Shown here: positions 6,142 to 58,649 of the stretch, one piece after another | Layout: every line of letters starts with the position of its first letter | Numbering within the stretch: the stretch's first letter is position 1 | Assembly (NCBI RefSeq): GCF_002216795.1 | Contig: NZ_CP022316.1 | Location: forward strand, 3,377,205-3,441,204 | Source: Brachybacterium avium | Lineage (GTDB): Bacteria > Actinomycetota > Actinomycetes > Actinomycetales > Dermabacteraceae | Reading direction: 5' to 3' | DNA: 64,000 nt | Made by a program: the position numbers and the translations under genes | The notes under the pieces: model-generated | The model's database searches: none | What the model was told of the DNA's origin: nothing | The model's input: only the letters and a program-made list of their open reading frames with translations

Positions 6142-8069
6142 ATGCTGCCGTCCCTGCGCCTCGGCCTCACCCTCGCGCTGCGCGCCACCGACCATGGCCG
6201 CTTCCGCGCGCTGAGCGCCCTGCTGGTGTCCCTGATCGGCTGTGCGCTGCTGGTGGTGGTGCTGTCCCTGCTGGATGCGGCCCGGCCCCGCAGCCTCGCC
6301 CCGGGGTCGGCGCCACGGAGGTGTTCGGGATGATCCTGCCGGGGATCGTGGCCCTGGCGATCGGTCTTCCCGTGCTCGCCGCCGCCGCAGCGACCGGCCG
6401 CATGTCCGAGCAGGACCGCTCTCGGCGCACGGCCCGTCTGCACCTGCTCGGGATGCGCCGAGGGCAGCAGGTGCTGGTGGGCATCGGAGAGAGCCTGCCG
6501 CCTGCGCTCCTCGGCGCGGCCGGAGGCCTCGCGGCCGGGACGCTGCTGGTGCCCTGGGCCGGACGGGTGCTGCTGGGGATGAGCCCGGCGCCGAACGTCG
6601 CCGTGGTCTCCCTCATCGTGGCCCTCGCGGTGCCGCTGTGCCTGATCGCCGGGACCGCGATGCCGACTCGGCGCTCTGGTATGGGGACGCTCGAGCGGGC
6701 ACGCGGTGAGGTCGCTCGCAGTCCCGGTCTCTGGCGGGCGGTGATCCTGGTGGTCGGCCTGTCGATGCTGATCCTCAGCTGGAGCCTGCCGGGGCTCTCG
6801 AACCCCGTGCTCGTCGTGCTGTTCCTCGGCGGGGCGGGGCTCGCCGCGCTGGGCAGCATCCTGCTGCCCGCTCTGCTGGTGCGGCGCAGCGCCGACCTGC
6901 TCGTCCGGGCCGGCACCCCGGTGACCGTCGTGGCGGGACGGCGACTGCAGTCACAGCCCGCCGTGCTCGGCCGGGTGCTCGGAGCCCTGGTGATCGGCGT
7001 CGTGGTGACGACCGCAGGGCAGGGACTGATCAGCGTCCTCGCCGCCACCCCGGTCTACCAGGCCGGGCGTCACTACCGGGATGTCGAGGCCGTCGCGTCG
7101 GCGTTCCTCCCGGACCGGGCGGCCGTCGCAGACCTGGAACGGGCACTGGAGCAGGTCGGCGGAGCCCGGGAGGTGGCGGTCAGCACCGACGGCTTCGTCG
7201 TCGCCCCGGGCAGCACCCCACAGGAGCACGCGCTGCGGGCGACGGTGACCACCTGTGAGGAGCTTCGCGTCCTCCGACCGGAGGTGGAGGGCTGCCGGAA
7301 TGATCGTGCGGCCTGGATTCCGGCTGCGGCGGGGTTCGTTGTGGAGACACCGCTCCAGGGCACCGTGGACCTGTTCGGCACCGAGTACGACGAGAGCACC
7401 GGCGGGTTCGGGGACCCCGTGCTGCGGATCGAGGTCTCTGCGGACGAGCTCACCCGGGTTCCGGTCCCGGCATGGCAGGACACGGATTCAGAACCCACCC
7501 TGTTCGTCCCTCGGGCACTGCTCACCGAGGAGCAGTTCTCGCAGTTCGGCGGGGTGGACGCGATGATCACCGCATCACCGCGCCCCGACCTGCCCGCGGA
7601 GCTCAGAGCTCTGGGTATCGATGCTCATAACGGCTGGACAGCGGAGGACTTCGCCCCGTACCAGGCCACCATCGACACCATCCGCCTGCTGAACCTCGTT
7701 GTCCTGGCCGTCGGCCTGGGTGCCTTCCTGCTCGGCACGGCCGATCTGGCGATGGGTCGCCGGGCGGAGCACGCCCGCCTCCGGCTGCTCGGCACCCCTG
7801 TGGGCGTGCTGCGCCGTGCGTACTGGCTCGAGGTGGCGCTGCCGCTGGTGGTCGGTGGGGGAGCGGCGCTCGCGATCGGGCAGCTGGTCGCTGTCGCCTT
7901 CGTCGAGACCGGGAACCGAGGCATGGATCCGGGCATGGTGACGCATCTCGGCGCGGAGAGCCTCACAGGACCAGTGCTGGCCGTCGCGGGCGGCGCATTG
8001 GCGATCGCAGCGCTCACCTCGCTCGGCATCGGTGCACCACTGCGACCGGACCACATTCGTCGGGCCTGA
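6142..8069 (+). pseudogene. FtsX-like ABC transporter permease, frameshifted
   Basis: The membrane partner of the preceding ATPase. The first frame (6142-6333) gives an N-terminal membrane helix, LSALLVSLIGCALLVVVL. The second (6321-8069, 582 residues from GTG) gives further helices with the family motif MSEQDRSRRTARLHLLGM, a large extracytoplasmic part, and C-terminal helices with another MGRRAEHARLRLLG repeat. Adding one G to the G4 run at 6303-6306 joins them as SLAPGVGATEVFGMILPG in a single 642-residue protein, so the break is one missing base. Sequence error is likely, and a real knockout of the exporter is possible. A strong hairpin follows. Confidence 0.85.
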
Positions 8070-8109
8070 CCGCACCCGCTGACCGCCTGGCGCTGCACAG
8101 GCCGACGCA

Positions 8110-8147
8110 GCACGGGCCCGCCCGGATTGGGTCCGGGCGGGCCGTGC
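8110..8147. terminator. Bidirectional terminator after the ABC permease
   Basis: GC-rich arms 8110-8126 and 8132-8147 pair with one bulged base around a 5-base loop, between the plus-strand permease and the minus-strand small gene at 8155. Confidence 0.8.
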
Positions 8148-8154
8148 TCGGGAC

Positions 8155-8427
8155 TCACCGCAGGTGGGAGAGGCCGGTGCCGAGCAGAGCTCGCTGGGTG
8201 AGCAGCTCGTGCTCATGGCGCGCCTGCCGAGCGGCCAGCTCTCGGCGGGCCTGCCGCACCGCTCGACGGCGGGCGAGGAATCTCCGCAGCAGGGCGTCGA
8301 CGGCATGGTCGTCGCCGGCGTGCTCCAGCCGTCGGAGGCTGCGGTCGGCGATGGTCGGTTCGAAGGCGGTGGCGGTGGTGCGGGTGACGGTCGGGCTGCG
8401 AGTCTCGAGCGCGGTGCGAGGGGACAT
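8155..8427 (-). CDS. Small Arg-rich hypothetical protein
   Basis: A 90-residue protein of unknown function. After a Thr-rich N-terminus it is mostly a charged helix (DRSLRRLEHAGDDHAVDALL, then a run of Arg, Ala and Glu heptad-like sequence), with no membrane segment or metal site. The ATG at 8427 has a good ribosome binding site (CAGGAG, 7 bases upstream), which decides the start against the longer frame. It is isolated by the bidirectional terminator. I do not recognise a named family. Confidence 0.65.
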   Translation of the reverse strand: MSPRTALETRSPTVTRTTATAFEPTIADRSLRRLEHAGDDHAVDALLRRFLARRRAVRQARRELAARQARHEHELLTQRALLGTGLSHLR

Positions 8428-8518
8428 GGTGGGCTCCTGGGGGAGTGAGGTAAGAACGAGGATCCGGCACGGTACGGACAGCGGCAGTCCGTGAAGCGTG
8501 CAGGAGGGTGCGCTCGCC

Positions 8519-8815
8519 TCAGACGGCAACCTCGGGGAAGAGGGCGTCGTGCGGCGAGAGCTGGTCCAAGGGGTGCCGGCGGTGTGGCCGCACGGCGGGG
8601 CGCGGAGCGGTCTGCTCCGTCAGCCGGCCATCGGCGCGGCGGGCCCGGCGGTGCCGCGGCCCCCAGCGGCCGCGCGCAGAGCCACGGGACGTCCGTGAGG
8701 CCGGATGGGGGATGCGGCGAGGCCGAGCGACGACGCGGCCGGGCCGGCCGAGGTCGCGAGCGGGGTCGAGTGCATCTCCATACGGACAGTCGACCATTCC
8801 GCCCCGGGCCGGCAC
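8519..8815 (-). CDS. Possible small protein, uncertain
   Basis: A 98-codon minus-strand frame, rich in Arg and Pro, ending in a less biased tail (HPLDQLSPHDALFPEVAV). A GTG at 8815 sits two bases after a perfect 12-base palindrome (8818-8829). A second minus-strand frame in the same stretch begins MHSTPLATSAGPAASSLGLA (from about 8785), so the true product might combine the two through another frameshift like those elsewhere in this window. The whole span 8428-8948 holds no other gene I can support. Low confidence. Confidence 0.3.
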   Translation of the reverse strand: MPARGGMVDCPYGDALDPARDLGRPGRVVARPRRIPHPASRTSRGSARGRWGPRHRRARRADGRLTEQTAPRPAVRPHRRHPLDQLSPHDALFPEVAV

Positions 8816-8817
8816 AA

Positions 8818-8829
8818 CCGATTAATCGG
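8818..8829. repeat. Perfect 12-base palindrome CCGATTAATCGG
   Basis: This AT-centred palindrome lies in an otherwise very GC-rich gap, just upstream of the possible small minus-strand gene. It could be a repressor site; nothing else identifies it. Confidence 0.4.
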
Positions 8830-8883
8830 AGGCCCGTCGGCGGGGGTCCAGGGCCGGCGGGGCAGAGCCGGGCACGATGACAA

Positions 8884-8916
8884 GGACCCAGCCACCCGTC
8901 AGGGGCGGCTGGGTCC
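8884..8916 (-). terminator. Terminator after the mutarotase gene
   Basis: Arms GGACCCAGCC (8884-8893) and GGCTGGGTCC (8907-8916) pair perfectly. On the minus strand the stem is followed by TTGTC, downstream of the stop at 8949. Confidence 0.75.
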
Positions 8917-8948
8917 GGGTCGCGGTCCCCGCCGGGCGGGGGCGGAGG

Positions 8949-9830
8949 TCAGCGCTCGATGCGGTAGGTGACGCCGATGCTGTGCGATTCCCCGGACGCG
9001 AGCGCCACGAAGCCGTCCTTGGCGATGGCCGGCTCGATGCACACGAACTCGGGCCAGGCCGCATCGGGGATGTCGGCCATCTCCGTCACCAGAGCGTCCC
9101 AGGGGTTCCAGACCACGGTCTTGGATGTGCCGCGCGGGGTCGAGACGATGCGGCGGGAGTTCTTCGCATCGTGCACCGTCACCTCGGCGGTGGAGTCCAC
9201 CACCCGGTCGGTGGAGGCGGTCGGGCTCAGCGGCTCCCCCTCCGGCATGACGTCGGGGAGCAGGCCACGGGTGTTGTCGAGGAAGGCGGCGCCCTCCAGG
9301 CCGTGGATCTCGATCCGGCGCACATCGCCGACGGCGAGATAGGTGTGCAGCGCCGCTTCCAGCTCGAGGGGGCGAGGACCGGCGGTGATCGTGAGATCCA
9401 CCGACAGCTCGGCGCCGAGGCGGAACTGTGCGGTCGCGGTCAGCGCCTTGACGTCCGCAGGGGTGGCCAGGGTGATCACCACCTCGTCGCCCGTGCGCTC
9501 GGCGGCGGCCAGGTCCCAGCGGATGTTCCGCAGCCAGCCGTGCTTGACCTCCATCGCCAGATCGCGGCCGGGGCCGAACCACGGGCCGATCAGCGGGATC
9601 CCGCCGCGCACCGCCTCGCGCTCGCCGAAGGCGGAGTCCGGGCTGAGCCACAGCAGGTCCTGCTGCCCGGCGGGGATCCAGCTGATCAGCTGCGCACCGT
9701 CCAGCAGCAGCTCGGCCGTGGCGGCCGGGGTCTCGACCAGCAGGGCCGGGACCCCGTGGGTCTCGCCGAGGCGGACCCCTGCGGGCAGCGGGACGGACGG
9801 GGTGGGGGCATCGGTGCCGGTGGAGTTCAT
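8949..9830 (-). CDS. D-hexose-6-phosphate mutarotase (aldose 1-epimerase family)
   Basis: A 293-residue enzyme of the YeaD-like galactose-mutarotase fold, expected to interconvert the alpha and beta anomers of hexose 6-phosphates in the cytoplasm. Family landmarks are SWIPAGQQDLLWLSPDSAF, the GGIPLIGPWFGP loop, HGWLRNIRW (catalytic-region His), LEAALHTYLAVGD, and the C-terminal VVWNPWDALV and CIEPAIAKD, whose Glu matches the general base. The frame is open far upstream, but I start at the ATG at 9830, where family similarity begins. It follows the membrane-protein gene by 41 bases on the same strand. Confidence 0.9.
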   Translation of the reverse strand: MNSTGTDAPTPSVPLPAGVRLGETHGVPALLVETPAATAELLLDGAQLISWIPAGQQDLLWLSPDSAFGEREAVRGGIPLIGPWFGPGRDLAMEVKHGWLRNIRWDLAAAERTGDEVVITLATPADVKALTATAQFRLGAELSVDLTITAGPRPLELEAALHTYLAVGDVRRIEIHGLEGAAFLDNTRGLLPDVMPEGEPLSPTASTDRVVDSTAEVTVHDAKNSRRIVSTPRGTSKTVVWNPWDALVTEMADIPDAAWPEFVCIEPAIAKDGFVALASGESHSIGVTYRIER

Positions 9831-9871
9831 GCCCTCATCGTCGCACGTCACCGCGCGCAGGACCCGGGCCG

Positions 9872-11023
9872 TCAGTCTGTTGCCGCGCGGCCGTGATCGG
9901 GCTCCGGACCCGCCGATGCCTCTGGAGCACGGCGGATCTGCTCCGCCGTGCCCTCCGCGGCTGCCGAGACCGTGCGGATCAGCAGCAGCAGCCAGCCGTA
10001 CACGATCCCTGCGGCCCCCATCTCGAAGGCGGTCATGTTCAGATAGCCCACCCCCGCGTACAGCACGATGGCCGTCACCAGCAGGGCGAAGGCGACGGTG
10101 GTGACGGCGATCAGTGCGCCGGGCAGGCGCCGCAGCAGCACCGGCACGGCGAGCAGAGTGAGGCCGAAGACGACCACGAGCGACTGGGCGACCACGTCGT
10201 GCCAGACGATGCTCACGGAGCGGGAGATCACCGCCACCAGGGCGACCAGCACCCCGACCGCGGTCAGCAGGGAGCGCACGGCGGTGATCCGCCACACCGG
10301 TTCGCCGGCGCTGCGCGCCCAGCGGCCCAGATCGTGGGCGAGGAACTCCGCCACGGTCACCAGCGCCACCCCGGTCAGCAGCAGGGTGAGGTTGAAGGTG
10401 ACGCTCGCGAGGTCCTCGCCCTCGCCGAGCTCGGAGAAGTACCGCTCCCACCAGTACGGGTCCTCAGCACTCATGGCGCTCGCGAGCACCCCGACGGTGA
10501 GGAACGCGGCGAGCAGGGTGGCCAGTGAGCGGGTGGTCAGCGACGCGGCTGCCGCCGAGGTGACATAGGCGGCGATCCCGCCCGCGACGGCGACCCAGAA
10601 GGTGCCGGCCAGGCGATCGAGCGCGACTCCCTGGAACGCCTGCTGGAACACGCCGAAGAGGGCGCCGGCGAGGAACAGGCCGAGGATCCCGTGGACCAGG
10701 GAGAGGCCGATCACGTCGATCGCGCGGTGCCACCAGCGACGTCCCCCGAGCCACGGCAGGGTCTGCCGGGTGAGGGTCGAGAGGGTGAGAGCGGAGGTCG
10801 CCGCCGCGCAGCCGAACACCGTCAGCGCGGCGACCTGGCCGATCGAACCCGTCCCCGCGAGCGGGGAGGTCCCGCGCAGGGCGAGCAGCCCGACGAGGAG
10901 ACCCACCAGTGCACCGGCCACCCCGAGGAGGACATGCCGGGACTCTGCCCGAGAGGCGCGGGAGGACCGATGGCCGCCGGCCCCGATCGGTGCAGGCGTC
11001 CCCGGGCTCGTGGCGGCGTGCAC
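9872..11023 (-). CDS. Multi-pass membrane protein, DUF998-like
   Basis: A 383-residue integral membrane protein with about ten hydrophobic segments and a cytoplasmic N-terminus. The EDPYWWERYFSELGEGE segment after the fifth or sixth helix resembles the conserved loop of actinobacterial DUF998-type proteins, whose function is not known. The family assignment is from memory and moderate. The GTG start at 11023 lies 3 bases after the parC stop, so it is probably cotranscribed with and coupled to parC. Confidence 0.75.
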   Translation of the reverse strand: MHAATSPGTPAPIGAGGHRSSRASRAESRHVLLGVAGALVGLLVGLLALRGTSPLAGTGSIGQVAALTVFGCAAATSALTLSTLTRQTLPWLGGRRWWHRAIDVIGLSLVHGILGLFLAGALFGVFQQAFQGVALDRLAGTFWVAVAGGIAAYVTSAAAASLTTRSLATLLAAFLTVGVLASAMSAEDPYWWERYFSELGEGEDLASVTFNLTLLLTGVALVTVAEFLAHDLGRWARSAGEPVWRITAVRSLLTAVGVLVALVAVISRSVSIVWHDVVAQSLVVVFGLTLLAVPVLLRRLPGALIAVTTVAFALLVTAIVLYAGVGYLNMTAFEMGAAGIVYGWLLLLIRTVSAAAEGTAEQIRRAPEASAGPEPDHGRAATD

Positions 11024-11026
11024 GGC

Positions 11027-13483
11027 TCAGCCGACGGCGGCGATGGGGACGGCCACCGGGGTGCCCGAACCGTCCCGGCGTCCCGTCGGCTCCGGCAGAT
11101 CGATCGGCTGCCCGGCCTCGGACGAGGCTCGTGCCGGGTGCGGCACCACCCAGGCACCGATCAGCGCGTCCTCACCGCGCAGGAAGCGATGGCAGCGCAT
11201 TCCGGCCGTGGCACGGCCCTTGGCGGGGAACTCGGTGAGCGCGGAGACCTTCAGCGAGCCGGTCTGCAGCAGCGGCAGGGTGCCTGAGCTGCCGGCGACG
11301 GTGACCACGTCGGCCGGAGCCGTCACGTCGATCGCTCCGAAGGACACCACCCGGTCGCCGCTCGCGAGCTTGACCCCGGCCACCCCGCCGGCGGTGCGGC
11401 CCTGCGGCCGGATGCCGGAGGCGGGGAAGTGGAGCAGCTGCGCCTCGGCGGTGACGAACACCAGGTCGAGGTCCTCGTCCTGCTCGAGATCCACGACCCC
11501 GACCACCGCGTCCCCGTCTTTGAGCGAGATGATCTCGAAGCCGTCCCCGCGGGGGAAGTCGAGCTGGACCCGTTTGACCACACCCTGGCGGGTGCCCACG
11601 GCGATCGCCCCGCCCCGCGCGATATCGGGCTCGGCCACCCGGATCAGGCCCAGGGCCCGCTCCTCGCGCTCCAGATCGATCAGGTCGGAGAGCCGCGTGC
11701 CTCCGGCCAGCGACGGCGCACCGGCCGTCGGGGCGAGCGAGGGCAGGTCCACGACGGACAGCCGCAGCACCCGCCCACGATCGGTGACCACGCCGACGCT
11801 CGAGCGGGTGGTGGTGCGGGCATCGGAGACGATCACGTCGTGCGCACCGCGCGGTCCCTCGCGCAGCAGCGGGTCCCCCCCGGTGATCCGGGCGATCAGC
11901 CCGGTCCCGGTCAGCAGCACCCGGCACGGCTCATCGGCCACCTCGAGGGACGCCCCGGAGACCACGGCGGGCTTCTCCGCGGCCTCCAGCAGCACGGTGC
12001 GGCGAGAATCGCCGTGCTCGGCGGCCACGGCGGCGAGCTCCTCGGAGACCAGCGCGCGCAGCACGACCTCGGACCCCAGGATCTCCTCGAGACGCTCGAT
12101 CTCCCGGCGCAGATCATCCCGCTCGGCCTCCAGATCGATCTGCGAGAACTTCGTCAGCCGCCGCAGCCTCAGCTCGAGGATGTACTCGGCCTGGAGCTCG
12201 GAGAGGTCGAAGACGGTCATCAGGCGCGTGCGCGCGGTCTCGGCATCGTCGCTCTGACGCACGATCTGGATCACCTCGTCGATGTCCAGGATCGCCAGCA
12301 GCAGCCCCTCCACCAGGTGGAGGCGCGCCCTGCGCCTGCTCAGCCGGTGCTCGGTGCGGCGGCGGACCACCGTCACCCGATGCTCGACGAACACCTCCAG
12401 CATCTGCTTGAGCCCCAGGGTGCGCGGCTGCCCCTCGACCAGGGCCACGTTGTTGATGCCGAACGATTCCTCCAGCGGCGTGTACTTGTACAGCTGCGCC
12501 AGCACCGCGTCGGGGTCGAAGCCCGACTTGACCGTGAGCACCAGGCGCAGGCCGTGGTGGCGGTCGGTGAAGTCCTGGTAGTCGGTGATGCCCTGGACCC
12601 GCTTGGCCTGCACGGCGTCGCGCAGCTTCTCGGCCAGTCGCTCCGGGCCCACCTGGTACGGCAGCTCGGTGACCACGATGCCCTTGCGACGCGAGGTGAC
12701 GTTCTCGATCCGGGTGGTGGCCCGCATCTTGAACGAGCCGCGCCCGGTGCGGTACGCGTCCCGGATGCCGTCCAGACCCACGATCCGTCCGCCGGTGGGC
12801 AGGTCCGGTCCCGGGACGAAGCGCATCAGCTCCTCGAGCTCCGCGTCGGGATGGTCGATCAGGTGCCGCGCCGCGGCGATGGTCTCCACGAGGTTGTGCG
12901 GCGCCATGTTCGTGGCCATGCCGACCGCGATTCCGGAGGCCCCGTTGACCAGCAGATTCGGATACTGAGCGGGAAGCACCTCGGGCTGCAGCAGCTGGTT
13001 GTCGTAGTTGGGGATCATGTCCACGACGTCCTCGTCCAGCGAGTCCGTCATCAGCAGCGCGGCCTTCGCCAGCCGCGCCTCGGTGTAGCGCGGCGCGGCG
13101 GGGCCGTTGTCCAGCGAGCCGAAGTTGCCGTGGCCGTCCACCAGTGGCATGCGCATGTTGAAGCTCTGCGCCATGCGCACCAGCGCGTCGTAGATCGCCG
13201 TATCGCCGTGGGGATGGAGCTTGCCCATCACCTCGCCGACCACGCGCTGGCTCTTCACATGGCCCTTCTCGGGACGCAGCCCCATCTCGGCCATCATGAA
13301 GAGGATGCGCCGCTGGACGGGCTTGAGCCCGTCGCGGGCATCCGGGAGCGCCCGGGAGTAGATCACGGAATACGCGTACTCCAGGAACGACGTCTCCATC
13401 TCACTGGTGACGTCGATGTCGACGATGGTCTCCTCGACGGCTTCCTCTCCGGAGGGCGGGGTGGTGCTGCGTGATCGGGCCAT
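11027..13483 (-). CDS. parC: DNA topoisomerase IV subunit A
   Basis: The DNA-cleaving subunit that pairs with ParE. The 818-residue protein has the winged-helix region VYSRAL-like YSRALPDARDGLKPVQRRIL, the quinolone-resistance-determining helix HPHGDTAIYDALVRMAQ, and the catalytic tyrosine in AAPRYTE at about residue 133. These are followed by the tower and coiled-coil domains, then six beta-propeller blades from about residue 500. The position equal to E. coli GyrA Ser83 is Thr here and the Asp87 equivalent is Asp. I start at MARSRS (13483); the four upstream residues from 13495 carry no conserved sequence. A gyrA reading is possible, but ParE-clade features nearby favour parC. Confidence 0.92.
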   Translation of the reverse strand: MARSRSTTPPSGEEAVEETIVDIDVTSEMETSFLEYAYSVIYSRALPDARDGLKPVQRRILFMMAEMGLRPEKGHVKSQRVVGEVMGKLHPHGDTAIYDALVRMAQSFNMRMPLVDGHGNFGSLDNGPAAPRYTEARLAKAALLMTDSLDEDVVDMIPNYDNQLLQPEVLPAQYPNLLVNGASGIAVGMATNMAPHNLVETIAAARHLIDHPDAELEELMRFVPGPDLPTGGRIVGLDGIRDAYRTGRGSFKMRATTRIENVTSRRKGIVVTELPYQVGPERLAEKLRDAVQAKRVQGITDYQDFTDRHHGLRLVLTVKSGFDPDAVLAQLYKYTPLEESFGINNVALVEGQPRTLGLKQMLEVFVEHRVTVVRRRTEHRLSRRRARLHLVEGLLLAILDIDEVIQIVRQSDDAETARTRLMTVFDLSELQAEYILELRLRRLTKFSQIDLEAERDDLRREIERLEEILGSEVVLRALVSEELAAVAAEHGDSRRTVLLEAAEKPAVVSGASLEVADEPCRVLLTGTGLIARITGGDPLLREGPRGAHDVIVSDARTTTRSSVGVVTDRGRVLRLSVVDLPSLAPTAGAPSLAGGTRLSDLIDLEREERALGLIRVAEPDIARGGAIAVGTRQGVVKRVQLDFPRGDGFEIISLKDGDAVVGVVDLEQDEDLDLVFVTAEAQLLHFPASGIRPQGRTAGGVAGVKLASGDRVVSFGAIDVTAPADVVTVAGSSGTLPLLQTGSLKVSALTEFPAKGRATAGMRCHRFLRGEDALIGAWVVPHPARASSEAGQPIDLPEPTGRRDGSGTPVAVPIAAVG

Positions 13484-13573
13484 GCACGCCATCATGGCGC
13501 ATGACCGGCCATGATCCCGGGAACCCGGGGCCGGGGAAGGACGTGAATCCCGTCAACTCCACGGCCCCGACGC

Positions 13574-13579
13574 TAGGAT
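13574..13579 (+). promoter_or_regulatory. -10 element for a leaderless acyl-CoA ligase transcript
   Basis: TAGGAT is followed by 6 bases and the ATG at 13586, with no Shine-Dalgarno in between. Confidence 0.55.
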
Positions 13580-13585
13580 CGGACC

Positions 13586-16300: not shown

Positions 16301-16360
16301 GCGGCGCCACCGGGCGGCGGCAGGATCTCCCGGCAGCGCCCGTCATGGGACACTGCAGGG

Positions 16361-16945: not shown

Positions 16946-16971
16946 CCGGTGCGCCCCCACCGCCCGGCCCG

Positions 16972-18117: not shown

Positions 18118-18151
18118 ACGGGACCGGCCGCGTGGTGCGGTCGGTCCCGTT
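18117..18151. terminator. Bidirectional terminator between phosphodiesterase and sepH
   Basis: Arms AACGGGACCGGCC (18117-18129) and GGTCGGTCCCGTT (18139-18151) pair with one mismatch between convergent genes. Confidence 0.8.
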
Positions 18152-18158
18152 CCGCGGC

Positions 18159-19496: not shown

Positions 19497-19648
19497 CGTC
19501 GTCCTCTCCGTCGGAGCCTGGTCGCTGGCGTGCAGACGTGTTGCTTGTGTGCAGAAGTCTAGGCCGCGACCATATCGTGCGCGGCACCCCTTCGCCCGTT
19601 CCTGGAGCGGACGCCGACCGCGTGTTGCCGCCCCTCGTGGACCCGGTG

Positions 19649-20836: not shown

Positions 20837-21376
20837 ATGCCTGTCGATCACGTTGACACCCTCTCCGGGGGTGCGGACCCCGGATCCGCCCCTGATGCAC
20901 CCGCTCTGCGGATCCGCCGCAGCGAGGCGGTGCCCATGCCCCATCGCGCACACCCCGAGGACGCCGGCCTGGACCTGGCCAGCGCCGAGGAGGTCGTGAT
21001 CCCCGCCGGCGGGCGCGCCCTGGTGGACACGGGCCTCGCCCTCGCGCTGCCCCCCGGGACCGTCGGGATGGTGTGCCCCCGCTCGGGCCTCGCCGCCCGG
21101 CACGGCATCACCGTGCTCAACGGCCCCGGTATCGTGGACGCGGGTTATCGGGGACCGATCAAGGTCGCCCTGCACAACACCGATCTGTCGGAGCCCTTCG
21201 ATGTGCACGTCGGGGACCGCATCGCACAGCTGGTGGTGGTGCCCTTCCTCGCTCCGCGCCTGGACGAGGTCGAGGACCTGGAGGCGACCGCCCGGGCCGG
21301 TGCCGGCTTCGGCTCCAGCGGCGGCTTCGGCGGGGGCGGCGCCACGGCCGGAGACCACGAGACCACGGAGGGATGA
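20837..21376 (+). CDS. dut: Deoxyuridine 5'-triphosphate nucleotidohydrolase (dUTPase)
   Basis: A trimeric dUTPase that hydrolyses dUTP to dUMP and pyrophosphate, keeping uracil out of DNA and feeding thymidylate synthesis. All five family motifs are present in the 179 residues: EDAGLDLASAE, CPRSGLAARHG, LNGPGIVDAGYRGPIKVAL, VGDRIAQLVV and the C-terminal AGFGSSGGFG arm that closes the active site. It has a Gly-rich tail after motif 5. Its TGA overlaps the region of the DUF3710 start, so the two are probably coupled. Confidence 0.96.
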   Translation: MPVDHVDTLSGGADPGSAPDAPALRIRRSEAVPMPHRAHPEDAGLDLASAEEVVIPAGGRALVDTGLALALPPGTVGMVCPRSGLAARHGITVLNGPGIVDAGYRGPIKVALHNTDLSEPFDVHVGDRIAQLVVVPFLAPRLDEVEDLEATARAGAGFGSSGGFGGGGATAGDHETTEG

Positions 21377-21378
21377 CC

Positions 21379-22173
21379 ATGGGACTGTTCTCCCGCAAGA
21401 AGCGGAATCGGGCGGAGACGGGCGACGAGCTCGACCCCCGTGACGAGCGCACGCCCGAGCAGGGCGAGGAGGAGCTGCCCGGCCAGGGCGAGGACCTCGC
21501 GCCGCAGGAGCCCGAGGAGGACCGTGACGAGGAGCGGGCCGGGGGTGAGCCGAGTCCCCGCGGTGAGCATCTCGAGGACGGCCCCTTCGATGAGGCCGAG
21601 GCCCCGGACGAGGAGCGCATCGACCTCGGCGGGCTGCAGGTCCCGACCATCGACGGGATGGAGCTGCGGATGGAGGTGGACCAGCGCAGCAGTGCGGTCA
21701 CCGGAGCGAACCTGGTCCTCGGAGGGTCCTCGCTGCAGGTCCAGGCGTTCGCGGCCCCCAAGTCCCGGGGACTGTGGGAGGACGTGCGCCGCTCGCTGCG
21801 GGACTCCGTCGTCACCCAGGGCGGTACCGCCGAGACCCGTTCCGGAGCCTTCGGCACCGAGCTGATCACCCGACTGCCGGTCAAACGGGCCGACGGACGC
21901 ACCGGCTACCGGCCGGCGCGGTTCATCGGCATCGACGGGAGGCGCTGGTTCCTCCGCGCGATCCTCACCGGCAAGGCACTCGGCGACTCCGAGCAGTCCC
22001 GTCGCTTCGAGACCCTCCTGTCCCGACTGGTCGTCGTGCGCGGCACGGGTGCGATGGCGCCGCAGGAGCTGATCCCGCTGCACCTGCCCGGCGAGCACCC
22101 CGGATTGGACCAGATCCGGTCCGGACCGCTGGACCCGCTGGCTCGCGGCCCCGAGATCACCGAGGTCGGATGA
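21379..22173 (+). CDS. DUF3710 family protein
   Basis: A 264-residue protein of a family that follows dut in actinobacteria. It has a basic N-terminus (MGLFSRKKRNR), a long acidic disordered stretch to about residue 70, and then the conserved domain (RIDLGGLQVP, VTGANLVLGGSSLQVQAFAAPKSRGLWED, RFIGIDGRRWFLRAILTGKA). The function is unknown. Of the two nearby ATGs (21373 and 21379) I prefer 21379, because GGAGG lies 7 bases before it and directly abuts the other. Its stop overlaps the DUF3159 start. Confidence 0.88.
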   Translation: MGLFSRKKRNRAETGDELDPRDERTPEQGEEELPGQGEDLAPQEPEEDRDEERAGGEPSPRGEHLEDGPFDEAEAPDEERIDLGGLQVPTIDGMELRMEVDQRSSAVTGANLVLGGSSLQVQAFAAPKSRGLWEDVRRSLRDSVVTQGGTAETRSGAFGTELITRLPVKRADGRTGYRPARFIGIDGRRWFLRAILTGKALGDSEQSRRFETLLSRLVVVRGTGAMAPQELIPLHLPGEHPGLDQIRSGPLDPLARGPEITEVG

Positions 22174-22972
22174 GCCCCGCCGCGCAGGATCCGGTCCGTC
22201 CCCGCCAGGCGCCGTCGCAGAAGGAGCCGCACGCCTCACAGGAGCCGCACGCCTCGCAGGAACCGCGCTCCCCACAGGAACCGCGCCCCGCACAGGAGCC
22301 GCCCTCCTCCCGAGCCCGGCACCGGCCGGCGCCGGTGAGCGGCGCAGCGGACTGGGCGCCGTCCTCCAGGAGGAGGAGTTCTCGGTCGCCGACGCCATCG
22401 GAGGCCCACGCGGCATCATCGAATCGGCGCTGCCGACGCTGCTGTTCGTCGTGCTCTTCGTCGCCACCCGCTCGGTGATGATCGCCGCCGTGGCTGCGAC
22501 CGCCGTGGTGGTGGTGCTGCTGATCGCCCGCATCGTGCAGCGCCAGAGCCTCAGCACCGTTCTCGGCGGACTGGTCGGCGCCGCTCTCGGTGCCGTGCTG
22601 GCGATCCGCTCCGGCGAGGGCTCGGACTTCTACTGGCCCGGGATCGTCACCAATGCCGTCGCGCTGCTGGTGCTCCTGGCCTCCATGGCTCTCCGCCGCC
22701 CCCTGGTGGGACTGCTGGTGGGACTGCTCGACCCGCGCGTGAAGGACTGGGCGCAGGACCCCGACGCCCGTCGCGTCTACACCCGCGCGACCCTCCTGTT
22801 CGTCCTCCTGTATACCGCGAAGCTCGGCGTCCAGCTGCCCCTGCTGCTGACCGGGCAGGTGGCCGCCCTCGGTGCGGCGAAGATCGCGATGGGGCTGCCG
22901 GCCTTCGCCGTGATCGCCTACCTGGTCTGGCTCATGCACCGCGGGCTCCTGGCCCGCCGGGATCACGACTGA
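22170..22972 (+). pseudogene. DUF3159 family membrane protein, frameshifted
   Basis: DUF3159 proteins are multi-pass membrane proteins next to DUF3710. The ATG at 22170 overlaps the previous stop and opens a Gln/Pro-rich N-terminus. The conserved part (SGLGAVLQEEEFSVADAIGG, then helices to 22972) lies in a frame one base earlier and has no start codon of its own before the GTG at 22451. The switch falls between 22310 and about 22336; adding one G at GG 22334-22335 would give APGERRSGLGAVL and a 267-residue protein. One missing base is the simplest cause. A shorter product from 22451 would lose the conserved N-terminal motif. Confidence 0.75.
22218..22310 (+). repeat. 18-base tandem repeats encoding Q-E-P units
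   Basis: Five imperfect in-frame units, each beginning CAG-GAR-CCG (one with an extra AAG), encode a Gln-Glu-Pro-rich spacer at the N-terminus of the DUF3159 protein. The codon-phase repetition shows that this stretch is translated in the ATG frame. Confidence 0.8.
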
Positions 22973-29704: not shown

Positions 29705-30526
29705 TCAGCTCAGGGAGCTGCGCGGGGAGGGGTCGTCCGGCCGGGCGGTGAGGATGATCGGTGCACCATCGGTGATCTGCATCGTGTGCTCCGCATGGGC
29801 GCCGCGGGAGCCGTCGACCGAGAGCTGGGTCCAGCCGTCGCGCTCATCGACCCGCAGCTCGGAGGTGGTCGGCACCAGGAAGGGCTCGACCGTGATCAGC
29901 TGGCCGGCGAACAGCTCGATGCCGCCCCCGGGGGTGCCGTGATTGGGCACGAAGGGAGCCTCGTGCATGGTGCGTCCGACGCCGTGGCCGCCGAAGCGGT
30001 CGTTGATCGAATAGCCGAGTGCATGCGCCTCGTTCATGACCGCGTGCCCGATGTCCCCGACGGTGTTCCCGGCCCGCACCTGATCGATGCCGGCCCACAT
30101 CACCTGCTCGGTGTCGCGGATCAGCTGCTGATCCTCCTCGCGGGGCGTTCCCACGGTGATCGACAGGCAGGAGTCCGCGACCCACCCCTCGACCTCGACC
30201 GCGAAGTCCAGGGAGAGCAGGTCGCCGTCGGCCAGCACCCGGTCATAGGGGCGACCGTGGAGCACGCCGTCGTTGAGGGAGGTGCAGATGACGTGGCCGA
30301 AGGGCGAGGCCCCGAAGACGGGGTGGTAGTCGAGGTAGCAGCTGGTCGCCCCGGCGTCGCGGATCAACCGGTGCGCCTCCGCGTCGACCTCGAGCAGATT
30401 CCAACCCACCTCCACCTCCTCGCGCAGATGGGAGAGCACGGACGCGACGAACTCGCCCGCCGGGCGTGCCTGCTCGAGGGTGGGCAGCTCCTGCGTCGAG
30501 CTGCGGCGGCGTCGGCCGAGGATCAT
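29705..30526 (-). CDS. map: Methionine aminopeptidase, type I
   Basis: Removes the initiator methionine from new proteins using two metal ions. The 273-residue pita-bread fold shows the substrate His in ICTSLNDGVLHG, metal ligands in LSLDFAVEVEGWVADS (two Asp), GHGVGRTMHEAPFVPNHG (His), ITVEPFL (Glu) and AEHTMQI (Glu). All expected catalytic residues are present. The ATG at 30526 overlaps the ctaA stop (ATGA), so it is coupled to ctaA rather than to the ribosomal-protein operon where another map copy is common. It converges with dxs across about 50 bases. Confidence 0.93.
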   Translation of the reverse strand: MILGRRRRSSTQELPTLEQARPAGEFVASVLSHLREEVEVGWNLLEVDAEAHRLIRDAGATSCYLDYHPVFGASPFGHVICTSLNDGVLHGRPYDRVLADGDLLSLDFAVEVEGWVADSCLSITVGTPREEDQQLIRDTEQVMWAGIDQVRAGNTVGDIGHAVMNEAHALGYSINDRFGGHGVGRTMHEAPFVPNHGTPGGGIELFAGQLITVEPFLVPTTSELRVDERDGWTQLSVDGSRGAHAEHTMQITDGAPIILTARPDDPSPRSSLS

Positions 30527-31553
30527 CGTGCCTCCGTGGAGTCGTGGGTCAGGTGCGTGGCCGTGGCGGGGGAGCCGGCGTCCTGCCAGGTGACCAGCCG
30601 GGCACCCACCCAGGCGATGGTCGCGGCGAACAGGGCTGCACCGATCATGTGGAAGAACACCACCAGCTCGGGCAGGCCGAGGAAGTACTGGATGTAGCCG
30701 ACGATGCCCTGCGCGAGCGTGAGCGCCACCAGCCACCAGGCGGCGACGATCGCCTCCCGGCGGGCATGGGAACGGTGCAGGACCACCAGCAGCGCGGCGA
30801 GCAGCGCGCAGAAGACGTAGACCGCGACCGCGTGCATCCGGGCGGCGATCATCGGGTTCAGGGCGATCCGGGTGACGTCCCCGGCATCCCCGGAATGGGG
30901 CCCCGTCCCGGTGACGATCGTGCCCAGCACCAGGACCACGAAGCCCACCGCCGCCAGCGGGACGAACACCCTCATCGCCCGGGCGGGCACTGCGAGGTGC
31001 ATGCGTCCATCACCGTCGTACAGCCGCACCAGCAGCACCATCGAGACGGCACCCAGCAGCGGAGAGATCAGGAAATGCGGGCTGACCAGCCCGGGATGCA
31101 GATCGAGCCAGACCACGAAGGCGCCGATCATCGCCTGCAGCGCGGTGCCGATCAGCGGTATCCAGGCCAGGCGGCGGAAACCGGCGCCCTTGTGCCCCAA
31201 CCAGCGCCAGGTCACCAGCAGCACCGCGATCGCGAAGATGCTCAGCACCCCGGTCAGGGTCCGGTTCCCGAACTCCACGAACGGGTGGATGCCGGAGGCC
31301 ATGGTCAGCTCCGGGGTGAACTGGCCGGGCTTGCAGTTGGGCCAGGTGGAGCAGCCCAGACCGCTGCTCGTCAGCCGCACCGCGGCGCCGGAGAGGATGA
31401 TGCCCACCTGGCTGAGGAGGTTCCCCAGAACACGATGGCGGCCAGCCGAGCCCGGCGCTGCGGGCCCCAGGACGACAGACGGCGGTCGGGCAGCGTGGTG
31501 ATGCGGCCCTGTCGCTCGGGCAGGCGTGTCGCGGAATCGAGGGGGCGGGACAT
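30523..31553 (-). pseudogene. ctaA: Heme A synthase, frameshifted
   Basis: CtaA (COX15) oxidises heme O to heme A for cytochrome c oxidase. The main frame (from 31407) starts at GIILSGAAVRLTSSGLGCSTW and carries the heme-ligand histidines in the membrane helices. The N-terminus with ATG at 31553 (MSRPLDSATRLPERQG to IVFWG) is in a different frame. Adding one G to the coding-strand G4 run (C4 at 31423-31426) gives VFWGNLLSQVGIILSG, the normal first helix, and a 343-residue protein. Sequence error is likely. It overlaps map and is followed upstream by an ABC exporter, as in other actinobacteria. Confidence 0.85.
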
Positions 31554-31666
31554 GGGTCGAGTCTAGATTCTCCGACCGGGAGTTCGCTGGGCTCCGGGGC
31601 CGGATGCGACGGACGCCGCACCCGCTCCTGGCCGAGGGTGAGCGACCCGCCCGGGCGGGGCGTGTC

Positions 31667-43650: not shown

Positions 43651-45353
<1,703 letters not shown>

Positions 45354-45364
<11 letters not shown>

Positions 45365-48392: not shown

Positions 48393-48393
<1 letters not shown>
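47185..48393 (+). CDS. carA: Carbamoyl phosphate synthase small subunit
   Basis: The glutaminase subunit feeding ammonia to CarB. The 402 residues comprise the N-terminal CPSase domain ([38 protein letters not shown]) and a class I glutamine amidotransferase domain with the nucleophile in [16 protein letters not shown] near residue 272, HNHGFAVDV, and the catalytic HPE in [14 protein letters not shown]. It overlaps the preceding gene by ATGA and carB by TGATG. Confidence 0.97.
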
Positions 48394-51741
<3,348 letters not shown>

Positions 51742-51745
<4 letters not shown>

Positions 51746-52605: not shown

Positions 52606-52607
52606 CT

Positions 52608-52669
52608 GTTCAGGGTCTGCGTCGCCGGCCTCGGCAGCGGTGCAGACACCCCTCCGCAGGACCCTGAAC
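52608..52669 (+). terminator. Probable terminator region after pyrF
   Basis: GTTCAGGGTC (52608-52617) and GACCCTGAAC (52660-52669) pair perfectly and enclose a GC-rich 42-base segment with further pairing. It ends the pyr operon. Confidence 0.55.
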
Positions 52670-52805
52670 GAGCCCCGATCCGCACCGGACCAGCGGCGAA
52701 GCGTGTCAAAAGTGCGCTCCGCCACGAATATGGGGTTACGCTCTTCCCACATCGAGGTCCTCCCGGATCTCCACGTCACCAGCAAGAGAACAAGAGGTAA
52801 GAACA

Positions 52806-53132
52806 GTGGCTCTCCCTCCCCTCACCCCTGAGCAGCGGGCCGATGCCCTGAAGAAGGCGGCCGAAGCTCGTCGCGAGCGCGCCGCCATCAAGGCTCGCCT
52901 GAAGGACAGCGCCGGTCACCGCGGCGAGGAGATCAAGAAGGTCCTCAAGGAGGCCGAGGACAACGAGATCGTCGGTCGCCTCCGCGTCTCCGCGCTGCTG
53001 GAAGCCCTCCCGGGCGTCGGCAAGGTCAAGGCGCAGCAGATCATGGAGGAGATCGGCATCTCCCCCTCGCGCAAGATCCGCGGCCTCGGTTCTCACCAGG
53101 CAGAGAAGCTCGTCGCGCATTTCGCAGAGTGA
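52806..53132 (+). CDS. mihF: Actinobacterial integration host factor (mIHF/sIHF)
   Basis: A 108-residue DNA-binding nucleoid protein unique to actinobacteria, unrelated in fold to E. coli IHF. A basic N-terminal helix ([40 protein letters not shown]) precedes the helix-two-turn-helix ([20 protein letters not shown]) and [12 protein letters not shown]. It has its usual place between pyrF and gmk. Its GTG start has an A-rich leader (AAGAGGTAAGAAC), and the 136 bases after the pyrF hairpin probably hold its promoter, though I cannot pick one -10 with confidence. Confidence 0.93.
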
Positions 53133-53728
53133 GTGATCCCTCCGCCGGGGTCGATGCCGAGACGGCATCGACCCCGGTCACTGTCCTGGCCGGACCCACC
53201 GCGGTCGGCAAGGGCACCGTCTCCGCAGCGATCCGTGCCCGGTACCCCGAGATCTGGCTGTCCGTCTCCGCGACCACCCGGGCTCCGCGCCCCGGTGAGG
53301 TGGATGGCGTCCACTACCGCTTCGTGAGCGAGGAGGAGTTCTCCTCCCTGATCGAGAACGGCCAGATGCTGGAGTGGGCGGTGGTGCACGGTCGCAACAA
53401 GTACGGAACCCCGCGAGGTCCCGTCGAGCAGAAGGTCGCCGAAGGGCGCCCGGTGCTGCTGGAGATCGACCTGGCCGGCGCCCGGCAGGTCCGCGACTCC
53501 CTGCCCGAGGCGCAGTTCGTGTTCCTCGCCCCGCCGGACTGGGACACGCTCGTGGACCGGCTGGTGGGCCGTGGCACCGAAGATGCGGAGGAGCGCGAGC
53601 GCCGCCTGGCGACCGCGCGGGTCGAGCTCGCCGCGGAGGACGAGTTCGACGTCACGATCGTCAACGACACCGTGGATCGGGCCGCCGCTGAGCTGGCGCG
53701 CCTGCTCGGCGTGCGCGACCTCACCTGA
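53129..53728 (+). CDS. gmk: Guanylate kinase
   Basis: Phosphorylates GMP to GDP with ATP. The 199 residues include the P-loop [16 protein letters not shown] near residue 17, the GMP-binding signature [41 protein letters not shown] and the lid [17 protein letters not shown]-loop Ser is Thr (GKGT), which is common in actinobacteria. The GTG start overlaps the mihF stop (GTGA), so the two are coupled. Confidence 0.96.
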
Positions 53729-53769
53729 CCTCCGCCGCCCGTGCCCTCGTCCTCGGCAGGGGAAGGGCG

Positions 53770-53775
53770 TATCCT
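53770..53775 (+). promoter_or_regulatory. Possible rpoZ -10 element
   Basis: TATCCT lies about 36 bases before the rpoZ GTG, and an AAGGGA ribosome binding site follows. It would let rpoZ be expressed apart from gmk. Confidence 0.4.
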
Positions 53776-53811
53776 GAAGCGTCGCACGTCATATCTCACG
53801 AAGGGACATCC

Positions 53812-54174
53812 GTGGCCGGAACAGTCGCACATCCCGAAGGCATCACGAACCCCCCGATCGACCGTCTCCTGGAGACCGTCGACTCGAAGTACGCCCTGGT
53901 GCTGTACGCCTCGCAGCGCGCCCGCCAGATCAACTCGTACTACTCGCAGCTCTCCGAGGGCCTGCTGGAGTTCGTCGGCCCGCTGGTGGACGTCGAGAAC
54001 CAGGAGAAGCCGCTCTCGATCGCCCTGCGGGAGATCGACGAGAACCTGCTCACGATCCGCGAGATCGACGAGGAGGAGTACGCCGCGCAGAACGAGCCGG
54101 ACCCCAACGCTCCGGCCCCGCTGATGCTCGGCGACGACGCCCCCGAGATCCCGCCGACCGACTTCCCGCTCTGA
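53812..54174 (+). CDS. rpoZ: RNA polymerase omega subunit
   Basis: Omega helps assemble and stabilise RNA polymerase. The 120-residue protein has the conserved [31 protein letters not shown] and [15 protein letters not shown]. It has the extra acidic and Pro-rich C-terminal tail seen in actinobacteria. The GTG start has AAGGGA upstream. It lies in the conserved order gmk-rpoZ-coaBC-metK. Confidence 0.96.
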
Positions 54175-54198
54175 TCCCGGCTCCCGCCGAGTGATCCG

Positions 54199-55479
54199 AT
54201 GAGCAGCGAGCTGCGCACCTTCGACGGTGCCCGCGTCCTGGTCGGTGTCGGGGGAGGCATCGCCGCCTACAAGACCGCGCACCTGGTGCGCGGTCTTGTC
54301 GGTGACGGGGCCGATGTCCGGGTCATCCCCACCACCGCATCCCTCGAGTTCATCGGGGCCGCGACCTGGGAGGCGCTCAGCCACCATCCGGTGCTGACCT
54401 CGGTCTTCGAGGACGTCGACGAGGTCGCTCACGTCCGCCTCGGCCAGGAGGCCGAGCTGATGGTGATCGCGCCCGCCACGGCCGATCTGCTGGCCCGCCT
54501 GCGGATCGGCCGCGCCGATGACCTGCTGACCGCTTCCGCCCTGGTCGCCCGCACCCCGATCGTGGTGGCACCGGCGATGCACACCGAGATGTGGGAGCAC
54601 CCCTCCACGGTCGAGAACGTCGCCGTGCTGCGCGAGCGCGGTCTGATCGTGCTGGAACCGGCCGTCGGCCGGCTCACCGGTCCCGACTCCGGCGCGGGCC
54701 GGCTCCCCGAACCCGAGGCGATCCTCGAGGCCGCCCGCGCAGCGATCGCCGCGCCCCGGGATGCGCGCGGCGCCGTCCGCCGCGACCTAATGGGTCGGGA
54801 GCTGCTGATCACCGCCGGCGGCACCCGGGAGGACCTCGACCCGGTCCGCTACCTCGCCAACCACTCCTCGGGCAGGCAGGGCTGGGCACTCGCCCATGCC
54901 GCGCTCGCCCGTGGCGCCCGCGTGCGCCTGATCGCTGCGAACGTGGAGCTGGAGACCCCGCCCGGTGCCCTGCGCCTGGATGTGGGCAGCGCTGCCGAGC
55001 TCGCCGCACTGGTCGCCGAGCATCGCGGCCAGGTCGACGCTCTGGTGATGGCGGCCGCGGTCGCGGACTTCACCGCCGCCGAGCGGTCCGACTCCAAGAT
55101 CAAGAAGGACGAATCCGCCGGGGACGACAGCGAGGCGGTGCCCGTGCTCGCCCTGCGCCGCACCCAGGACATCCTGCGACTCAGTGTGCTCGAGCGCACA
55201 GAGGCCGGATCGGGGCGCCCGGTGATCGTCGGATTCGCCGCCGAGACCGGGGGAGGGGGCAGCAGCGCCTTGGACCTGGCGCGGCAGAAGGCTCGCCGCA
55301 AGGGCGCGGATCTGCTGGTCTTCAACGACATCACCGCCGGGGTGTTCGGCGCCACCGACAACTCCGTGCGCATCCTGGACCGCGGCGGCGAGGAGCTCGC
55401 CCGCGCCGAGGGCTCCAAGACCCTCGTCGCCCACGCCGTCCTCGATGAGCTCCTGCCCGCCCTGCCGGAAGTACCCTGA
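54199..55479 (+). CDS. coaBC: Bifunctional phosphopantothenoylcysteine decarboxylase / phosphopantothenate-cysteine ligase
   Basis: Two successive steps of coenzyme A synthesis in one 426-residue protein. The N-terminal FMN-dependent CoaC half has [18 protein letters not shown], the active-site His in [24 protein letters not shown] and [12 protein letters not shown]. The C-terminal CoaB half (from about residue 190) has [35 protein letters not shown], the catalytic KIKKD and LVFNDI. It starts 24 bases after rpoZ. Confidence 0.96.
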
Positions 55480-55484
55480 ACCCC

Positions 55485-56693
55485 ATGACCACCAGCGAGC
55501 TGCGCACCTTCACGTCCGAATCGGTCACCGAAGGCCATCCCGACAAGATCTGCGATCAGATCTCCGACGCGATCCTCGATGATCTGCTGGCCCAGGACCG
55601 CGATGCCCGCGTGGCCGTGGAGACCATGGTGACCACCGGGCTCGTGCACGTCGCCGGTGAGGTCCGCACCAGCGGGTACAGCGATGTCGCGACGATCGTG
55701 CGCGACGTGATCCGCGAGATCGGCTACGACTCCTCCGAGAAGGGCTTCGACGCCGATTCCTGCGGCATCGAAGTCTCCATCGGCGCCCAGTCCCCGGACA
55801 TCGCCCAGGGGGTCGACACCTCCTTCGAAGCTCGCGGGGACGTGGCGGCGGAGACCTTCGCGAGGCTCGGCGCCGGTGACCAGGGGCTGATGTTCGGCTA
55901 CGCCTGCCGCGACACCCCCGAGCTGATGCCGCTGCCCATCCATGCCGCTCATCGCCTCACCCGCAACCTCTCCGCGGCTCGCCGCGATGACGTGCTCCCG
56001 TACCTGCGCCCGGACGGCAAGACCCAGGTCTCGATCGGCTACGACGAGGACGGCGTGGCCCGCAGCGTCGACGCGATCGTGGTCTCCACCCAGCACAGCG
56101 CCGAGGTGGACCTCGACAGCCAGCTGGCCCCGGCGATCTCGAAGGTCGTCATCGCCCCGGTGCTCGAGGACCTCGAGGACCTCGGCCTGGACACCTCCGG
56201 GGTGGTCACCCACATCAACCCCTCCGGCCGCTTCGTGCTGGGCGGCCCCAAGGGTGATGCGGGGCTGACCGGGCGCAAGATCATCGTGGACACCTACGGC
56301 GGCATGGCCCGTCACGGCGGCGGCGCGTTCTCCGGCAAGGACCCCTCGAAGGTGGACCGCTCCGGCGCCTACGCGATGCGCTGGGTGGCCAAGAACATCG
56401 TCGCCGCGGGGCTCGCCGACCGCTGCGAGGTGCAGGTCGCCTACGCCATCGGCGTCGCCGAGCCGGTGGGCCTGTACGTCGAGACCTTCGGCACCGGGCA
56501 CGTCCCCTCGCACCAGATCGCCGCCGCCGTCCGGAAGGTCTTCGACCTGCGTCCCGCCGCGCTCATCGACGCGCTGGACCTGCTGCGCCCGATCTACTCC
56601 CTGACCTCGGTGCACGGGCATTTCGGTCGCGAGCTGCCCGAGTTCACCTGGGAGCGCACGGACCGTGCCGAGGAGCTGGAGCGCGCCCTGTGA
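55485..56693 (+). CDS. metK: S-adenosylmethionine synthase
   Basis: Makes SAM from methionine and ATP. The 402-residue protein has [20 protein letters not shown] near the start, [46 protein letters not shown] and the glycine-rich P-loop-like [19 protein letters not shown]. It follows coaBC by 5 bases. TACCCT, 7 bases before the ATG, could be an extra leaderless promoter inside the coaBC end. The priA gene that often follows metK in actinobacteria is absent; hisI comes next with a GTGA overlap. Confidence 0.97.
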
Positions 56694-57073
56694 CCACGCC
56701 CGATCCCCGCCTCGACCCCGCTCTCGCCTCGCGCCTCAAGCACGACGACGCCGGACTGCTCACCGCCGTGGTGCAGGACGCCACCGATCACCGTGTGCTG
56801 ATGGTCGGCTGGATGGATGACGAGGCGCTGCGCCGCACCCTGAGCACCGGACGCGTCACCTACTGGTCCCGCTCCCGCAGCGAATACTGGCGCAAGGGTG
56901 ACACCAGCGGGCACGTCCAGTGGGTGCGCTCGGTCGCCCTGGACTGCGATGGCGACACCCTGCTGGTGAGCGTCGACCAGGTCGGGGCGGCCTGCCACCG
57001 CGGCACCGACACCTGCTTCGACGGCGGCGACCTGGGCGCCCTCGTCCTGGATCCCACGGAGCGCACCTCATGA
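56690..57073 (+). CDS. hisI: Phosphoribosyl-AMP cyclohydrolase
   Basis: The third step of histidine synthesis, opening the adenine ring of PR-AMP. The 127-residue metal enzyme has [39 protein letters not shown] and the zinc/Mg site [16 protein letters not shown] followed by [10 protein letters not shown]. It has no fused HisE domain. It overlaps metK (GTGA) and trpE (ATGA), linking SAM, histidine and tryptophan genes in one transcription unit. Confidence 0.95.
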
Positions 57074-58649
57074 ACGATCGCACTGCCCGCGCAGAGGCCT
57101 ATCCCGAGCAGGTCGGGGGCCGCGAGGGCGACGCCCTCGGCGTCATCGTCCCGATCGCGAGACCTTCCGGGCGCTGGCCGCACGCCAGCGGGTGGTCCCG
57201 CTCAGCGTGCGGCTGCTGGCCGACGAGGACACCCCGGTCTCCCTCTACCGCCGACTGACGGACGACGGCGGCACTCGCGGCACCTTCCTGCTCGAATCCG
57301 CCGGGGAGGGCGAAGCCTCCCGCTTCTCGATCATCGGCACCCGGGCCCGCGCCGTCCTCACCGAGCGCGACGGGCAGGCGCACTGGCGCGGCGACGTCCC
57401 TGCCGGAGTCCCCACCTCCGGCAGCCCGGTGGAGGCCCTGCGCGCAGTGACCGGCGAGTTCCGCGCCGCCCGGCAACCCCACCTGCCGCCGTTCTCCGGC
57501 GGCATGGTCGGCTTCGTCGCCTATGACGCCGTCAGGCACTGGGAGAAGCTCGCCGCGTCCCCGCCGGACGAGATCGGGCTGCCCGACCTGTCGATGCTGC
57601 TGGCGCAGGATGTCGTGGTCCACGACGCGCACGACTCCACCGTGGTGCTGGTCGCCAACGCCCTGAACCTCAACGCCACCGATGACGGCGTGGACGCCGC
57701 CTATGACGACGCCCTCGCCCGGCTGGAGGTCATGCGGGAACGGCTGCGCACCCCTATCGCCGGCGGTGCGGTGGTCTACGACACCGTGCGCGAGCTCGAA
57801 CCCAAGGCCCGCACTTCGCAGCTCGAGTACGAGCAGGCCGTGCACGAGGCTGTCCGCGACATCATCGACGGCGAGATCTTCCAGGTGGTCCCCTCGCAGC
57901 GGTTCTCGCTGCCGATCGCCGCAGATCCGCTGGACGTCTATCGCGTGCTGCGGCGCATGAACCCCAGCCCGTACATGTATCTGCTGCGCACCGTCGACGC
58001 GGAGGGGGAGCCCATCGACGTGGTCGGGGCAAGCCCGGAGTCCCTGGTGACCGTGAGGGGGACCACCGCCACCACGCATCCGATCGCGGGCTCACGACCG
58101 CGCGGCACCACCCCGGAGGAGGACGAGCGGCTCGGGGCCGAGCTGCTCGCCGATCCCAAGGAGCGCTCCGAGCACCTGATGCTCGTCGACCTCGCCCGCA
58201 ACGACCTGCAGAAGTTCTGTGCGCCCGGGACCGTGGTGGTGCGCGACTTCATGCACCTGCAGCGCTTCTCCCACATCCAGCACATCGTCTCCACGGTCAC
58301 CGGGACGCTGCGCGAGGACGTCGAGGCCTACGACGCGCTGCGGGCCACGTTCCCGGCAGGAACGCTCTCCGGCGCCCCGAAGCCTTCCGCGATGCGGATC
58401 ATCGACCGGCTCGAGCCGGTGCGGCGCGGTGTCTACGGAGGCACCGTGGGCTACTTCGACTTCGCCGGCGACATGGATATGGCGATCGCGATCCGCACCG
58501 CCGTGATCAAGGACGGCACCGCCCACGTGCAGGCCGGCGGGGGAGTGGTCGCCGATTCGGACGCCACCATGGAGCATCGCGAGACGCAGTCGAAGGCCGC
58601 CGCCGCACTGCGAGCCGCCGCTGCCGCCGACACGCTGCGTCCGGCATGA
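57070..58649 (+). pseudogene. trpE: Anthranilate synthase component I, frameshifted near the N-terminus
   Basis: TrpE makes anthranilate from chorismate. The ATG at 57070 overlaps the hisI stop and opens [20 protein letters not shown] through DALGVIVP, but the conserved REETFRALA-like segment (RETFRALAARQRVVPLSV) and the rest are one base out of phase; the phase change is near 57151-57158. Without repair the first usable start is the GTG at 57192, which removes the beginning of the family domain but keeps the Trp-sensing LLES motif. One inserted base, e.g. C after 57156, gives 526 residues. Downstream signatures include IAGSRPRGTTPEED, MLVDLARNDL and FPAGTLSGAPK. Sequence error is likely. Confidence 0.85.

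Follow-up and report, generated by a model that had tools for sequence, protein, structure and literature searches.

Six genes in a 64-kb stretch of the Brachybacterium avium chromosome are each divided between two reading frames, and we consider it extremely likely, from comparison with congeneric sequences, that these breaks are errors in the assembly consensus caused by undercalled G/C homopolymers and that the genes would be intact in the organism. The stretch (here called the window; 64,000 nucleotides, G000:C1:3377205-3441204, where G000 is the B. avium assembly under study) contains split genes for an FtsX-type permease, a DUF3159 protein, CtaA, PyrB, CarB, and TrpE, and the frame change is a net −1 in all six. 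The G000 assembly totals 3,568,502 bases; its three contigs measure 3,459,731, 61,637, and 47,134 bases, and its completeness is rated at 100%. Against carB in the 12 genomes of the same genus that were searched, its carB fragment shows 79 to 96% identity, the best named species among the matches listed being Brachybacterium squillarum, at 84%. A separate observation concerns contig 2, where 2.46 kb (L170:274-2734) are 99.8% identical to a Micrococcus luteus plasmid (NZ_CP082332.1); the matching stretch of the plasmid is annotated with a Cmx/CmrA chloramphenicol efflux gene and an IS481 transposase, and the high identity suggests a recent transfer between genera.

Each split gene in the window was checked against seven congeners by DNA alignment and by a protein-level screen, and the pieces were searched for Pfam domains. 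In pyrB (44403..45364, plus strand), the frame changes at the run at 44648-44651, with 341 bases aligned to 342 in all seven congeners. Domain PF02729 is divided over both pieces of the gene, and a whole-genome search gives the same split. Similarly, carB (48393..51745, plus strand) changes frame at the run at 51075-51078 and has 351 bases where 7/7 congeners have 352; its CPSase domains come first and the MGS domain then follows in the other frame, and the match to each of the seven congener proteins passes from frame 3 into frame 2. In trpE (57070..58649, plus strand), the break lies near 57150-57155, in a C run called as three bases, with 301 bases versus 302 in 7/7 congeners, and the downstream piece carries PF04715 and PF00425. 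On the minus strand, ctaA, a member of the COX15/CtaA family (30523..31621), changes frame at the run at 31423-31426. It has 351 bases, compared with 352 in five of the seven congeners and 353 in the other two, and is −1 against congener G004; PF02628 is found in its downstream piece, and the upstream piece (67 amino acids) has no Pfam match.

The FtsX-like permease gene (6142..8069, plus strand) has its frame change at about 6298-6306, at adjacent C4 and G4 runs. G004 is the sole congener with an alignable copy, and here 359 bases correspond to 360; the downstream piece matches PF02687 at 26.1 bits (cutoff, 25.5). In the DUF3159 gene (22170..22972, plus strand), the frame changes between about 22265 and 22340, a position that cannot be placed exactly because the N terminus is too variable. 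With the G004 protein, the one of seven congener proteins that reveals the change, the match runs in frame 3 as far as 22265 and resumes in frame 2 at 22310, a net change of −1 modulo 3. The downstream piece carries PF11361, and the earliest frame-2 start codon in the list of open reading frames, at 22451, lies within the domain.

All six net −1 splits of the original prediction are therefore present, five by DNA alignment and DUF3159 by the frames of the G004 protein, and the gene identities hold as well, since one or both pieces of every gene match the named family in Pfam. The prediction had located at least four of the breaks at homopolymers, which is correct and extends to trpE. Its four runs of four G lie where it had placed them, but the further claim that one added G restores the family sequence exactly goes too far. 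Relatives do not show which base is missing, because several of them have a different base beside the run: the neighboring base is not G in 6/7 congeners at pyrB and is mixed at ctaA and carB, and at the permease break the neighboring C run fits the missing base as well as the G run does in the alignment with G004.

The protein-level screen detects the frame change with 7/7 congeners for carB, 2/7 for trpE, and 1/7 each for ctaA and DUF3159. Run against the same seven congeners, it missed the breaks in pyrB and the permease gene, which therefore rest on the DNA comparison; the screen is less sensitive than DNA alignment. The screen also indicated a seventh break at about 20.8 kb with two congeners. 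This was rejected as a spurious overlapping upstream frame, the downstream open reading frame at 20837-21376, presumably a dUTPase, being intact with its own ATG. Other switches in the protein screen (at 38.6, 42.5, 45.3, 54.2, 55.5, and 60.2 kb, with one or two congeners each) were set aside on coordinates only. Six breaks per 64 kb compare with 4.6 expected at 8 per 100 kb (probability of six or more, 0.32). The window is thus not special, and six breaks are ordinary for this assembly.

That rate comes from a wider comparison covering 640 kb of G000: 400 kb around the window and two further regions of 120 kb each, the second at 1.0 Mb and the third at 2.0 Mb. The references were the syntenic DNA of two congeners, G004 (about 90% identical to G000) and G002, with G002 only for the third region; G004 compared with G002, treated alike and with both directions added, served as the control. 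Genes were called without annotation, by a simple codon-position G+C rule devised for the analysis, and gene comparisons with less than 60% coverage or less than 76% identity were dropped. A break was counted only where the frame was conserved on both sides, with at least 10 codons at 60% amino acid identity per side. An early break count was discarded as noisier because it included over-extended starts and gene fragments.

In compared coding DNA, G000 shows 34 net −1 breaks per 397 kb with G004 as the reference (8.6 per 100 kb) and 28 per 386 kb with G002 (7.3 per 100 kb), together with 8 and 4 net +1 breaks, respectively. The control pair shows 5 net −1 breaks (0.75 per 100 kb) and 8 net +1 breaks in 665 kb; net −1 breaks are thus roughly tenfold less frequent in this syntenic control than in G000. 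The excess in G000 is confined to −1 breaks. The union of both comparisons holds 42 net −1 sites in G000, of which 32 are a single missing base and the other 10 align with multiple or larger gaps. It also holds 12 net +1 sites, 4 of them with a single extra base. Deletions are expected to be much commoner than insertions if homopolymers are undercalled, and 32 single-base losses against 4 gains agree with this.

The same imbalance speaks against the idea that the breaks are real, resulting from very recent −1 slippage at G/C runs, as could have happened in a passaged mutator strain needing uracil, arginine, and tryptophan. It is true that at most of these sites a single base separates G000 from its intact relatives, and real slippage also depends on run length. 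Nevertheless, by extrapolation hundreds of such breaks would be expected per genome, and with the further evidence from noncoding runs and dnaE given below, we judge recent slippage to be very improbable. Further, amino acid identity stays high past the breaks (e.g., 40/40 codons at carB and pyrB). True pseudogenes would be expected to lose conservation of the old frame after the break and to spare essential genes; neither was found, dnaE also being broken, although very recent mutations would show the same conservation.

Dependence on run length was assessed with a list of clean sites, limited to single missing bases with at least 6 codons at 60% amino acid identity on each side. The 33 clean sites are the 32 single-base sites plus ctaA, added by hand; trpE, DUF3159, and dnaE lie outside the list. 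A G/C run of at least 4 is touched by 30 of the 33, compared with 7.6% of 20,000 positions drawn at random from the compared regions, where the run assigned is in both cases the longest touching one, a rule that favors long runs. The observed run has four bases at 23 sites, five at 7, three at 2, and two at 1, so that only the last three sites lie away from long runs; the breaks in trpE and dnaE are likewise at runs of three. Sorted by inferred true run length, one base has been lost in 1 of 14,495 runs of three (0.007%), 2 of 3,902 runs of four (0.05%), 23 of 914 runs of five (2.5%), and 7 of 88 runs of six (8%) in the compared genes, on the assumption, not proven for each site, that the base was lost from the run itself. 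Undercalled homopolymers should be concentrated in runs and should become more frequent as runs lengthen, and both patterns were observed. The effect is not universal, as had been predicted, since about 2.5% of five-base runs and 8% of six-base runs are short. A/T runs of at least 4 number only 29 in the compared genes. In a separate count over loci L109-L128, G000 has 752 five-base G/C runs per 400 kb, versus 893 and 934 in the congeners; this deficit exceeds what the detected errors explain and is left out of our argument.

An observed run of exactly four at 23/33 sites would also suit recoding, in which the ribosome or RNA polymerase slips at G4 or C4 and the split genes are thereby expressed. 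However, only 23 of the 3,900 G4/C4 runs in compared genes sit at a break, and the congeners aligned at these sites have none. The sites also fall on both strands and in all three codon phases: the run base on the plus strand is G at 20 clean sites and C at 13, coding-strand runs of 4 to 5 are G in 11 cases and C in 18, and the phases are represented by 9, 9, and 14 of 32. We regard recoding as having a vanishingly small probability.

Undercalling, as opposed to mutation, should be indifferent to selection, occurring at equal rates inside and outside genes and affecting essential genes, and this is what we see. Among five-base runs with conserved flanks, counted with one reference at a time and in the 400-kb region only, G000 lacks one base relative to G004 in 11/235 coding and 3/62 noncoding runs (odds ratio, 0.97) and has one extra in 0/235 coding runs. 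In the control pair, a base has been lost in 3/316 coding versus 5/94 noncoding five-base runs (p = 0.018), indicating that genes are protected there. With G002 as the reference, the counts for G000 are small (5/130 coding and 1/51 noncoding). For lengths 3 and 4, the conserved-flank count fails to separate G000 from the control; coding runs of length 4 give 7/657 in G000 and 4/669 in G004 with G002 as the reference. This count replaced a stricter one, in which both references had to agree and flanks were two bases, because the stricter one retained too few five-base runs (61 coding and 23 noncoding, 2 and 1 of them short). Equal loss in coding and noncoding DNA is a second point against recent slippage.

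A third is the state of dnaE. The gene for this replicative DNA polymerase is indispensable, and it spans two frames in G000 (G000:C1:3004169-3007347, locus L228). It is in one frame in 6/6 congeners, scoring 1,268 to 1,292 bits, and relative to all six, G000 lacks one base in the C run at the break. A second full-length polymerase scores 592 bits in G000 and has a counterpart in 6/6 congeners (range, 581 to 593 bits); its presence in all of these genomes indicates that it is no recent replacement for dnaE, and we take this second, lower-scoring enzyme to be unable to stand in for the main DnaE. Because no living cell could carry a broken replicative dnaE, the break counts against slippage as its source. 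The four genes looked up as long and usually essential were rpoB, rpoC, ileS, and dnaE, and one of the four (dnaE) is broken. No break in rpoB, rpoC, or ileS appeared in the search output, which fits the error rate and fits a sparing of essential genes equally well. Taken together, the equal loss in coding and noncoding runs, the conserved sequence past the breaks, and the hit on an essential gene favor error over mutation.

Breaks also affect ftsH, a relA/spoT family gene, qcrA (Rieske subunit), gltD, and a prpD-like gene, among others; these names come from the unbroken copies in the congeners, and the look-ups covered 28 of the 32 clean-site genes. Two clean sites, kept in the counts, lie in genes weakly similar to drug-phosphotransferase or efflux families. 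In addition, a gene for a chorismate-binding enzyme at G000:C1:1768966-1769735 matches as two pieces in different open frames, which is likely a break of the same kind.

Run length might not be the only influence on the errors. Undercalled five-base runs, read as G, follow two pyrimidines in 18/23 cases, versus 317/894 for intact runs (p = 3e-5), in a test over loci L109-L128 and L175-L186 that was post hoc, one of four, and based on 23 sites. This would be in line with a sequencing error driven by local context or by a modified base near the run, beyond run length alone. We find that unlikely, as run length is the dominant factor, the listed contexts share no fixed motif, and the pyrimidine test has the post hoc character just described. 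In its more specific form, the undercalled five-base runs would be those after two pyrimidines and not a random 2.5%, possibly reflecting a strain-specific base modification or the pore-signal context. We hold this to be quite improbable; if it were true, the modification or context could be read from raw signal.

The systematic undercalling of homopolymers proposed in the original prediction is thus borne out by losses exceeding gains, concentration in G/C runs, length dependence, equal coding and noncoding loss, a control rate about tenfold lower, and a broken dnaE. The basecaller or consensus step would have dropped one base from about 2.5% of five-base and 8% of six-base G/C runs, and runs shorter than five would rarely be undercalled. 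In a genome of about 70% G+C, such undercalling would produce a frameshift roughly every 12 to 14 kb of compared coding DNA, which by extrapolation amounts to about 200 to 300 frameshifts or affected genes chromosome-wide. The NCBI label "many frameshifted proteins" is meant for assemblies with such a rate of frameshifted genes. The assembly of the chromosome into a single 3.46-Mb contig and the sharp rise in errors at five bases lead us to infer that a long-read platform is probably the cause, most likely nanopore sequencing that was not polished with short reads.

There is a known parallel in long-read bacterial assemblies, for which the Kastor paper ties indel deletions to homopolymers, mostly of four to five bases, and describes how such deletions make intact genes resemble frameshifted pseudogenes (PMC12007338). 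Homopolymer deletions, runs of four to five bases, and fragmented genes are common to that description and to the present case. An example given in the same paper has A/T runs more error-prone than G/C runs (PMC12007338), whereas here 30/33 sites touch G/C runs of at least 4.

The six breaks in the window almost certainly represent no biological feature. Reading them as undercalled homopolymers averts the false claim that B. avium requires uracil and tryptophan and has a broken oxidase pathway. Findings of gene loss, pseudogenes, or split genes drawn from this assembly need a prior check against congeners.
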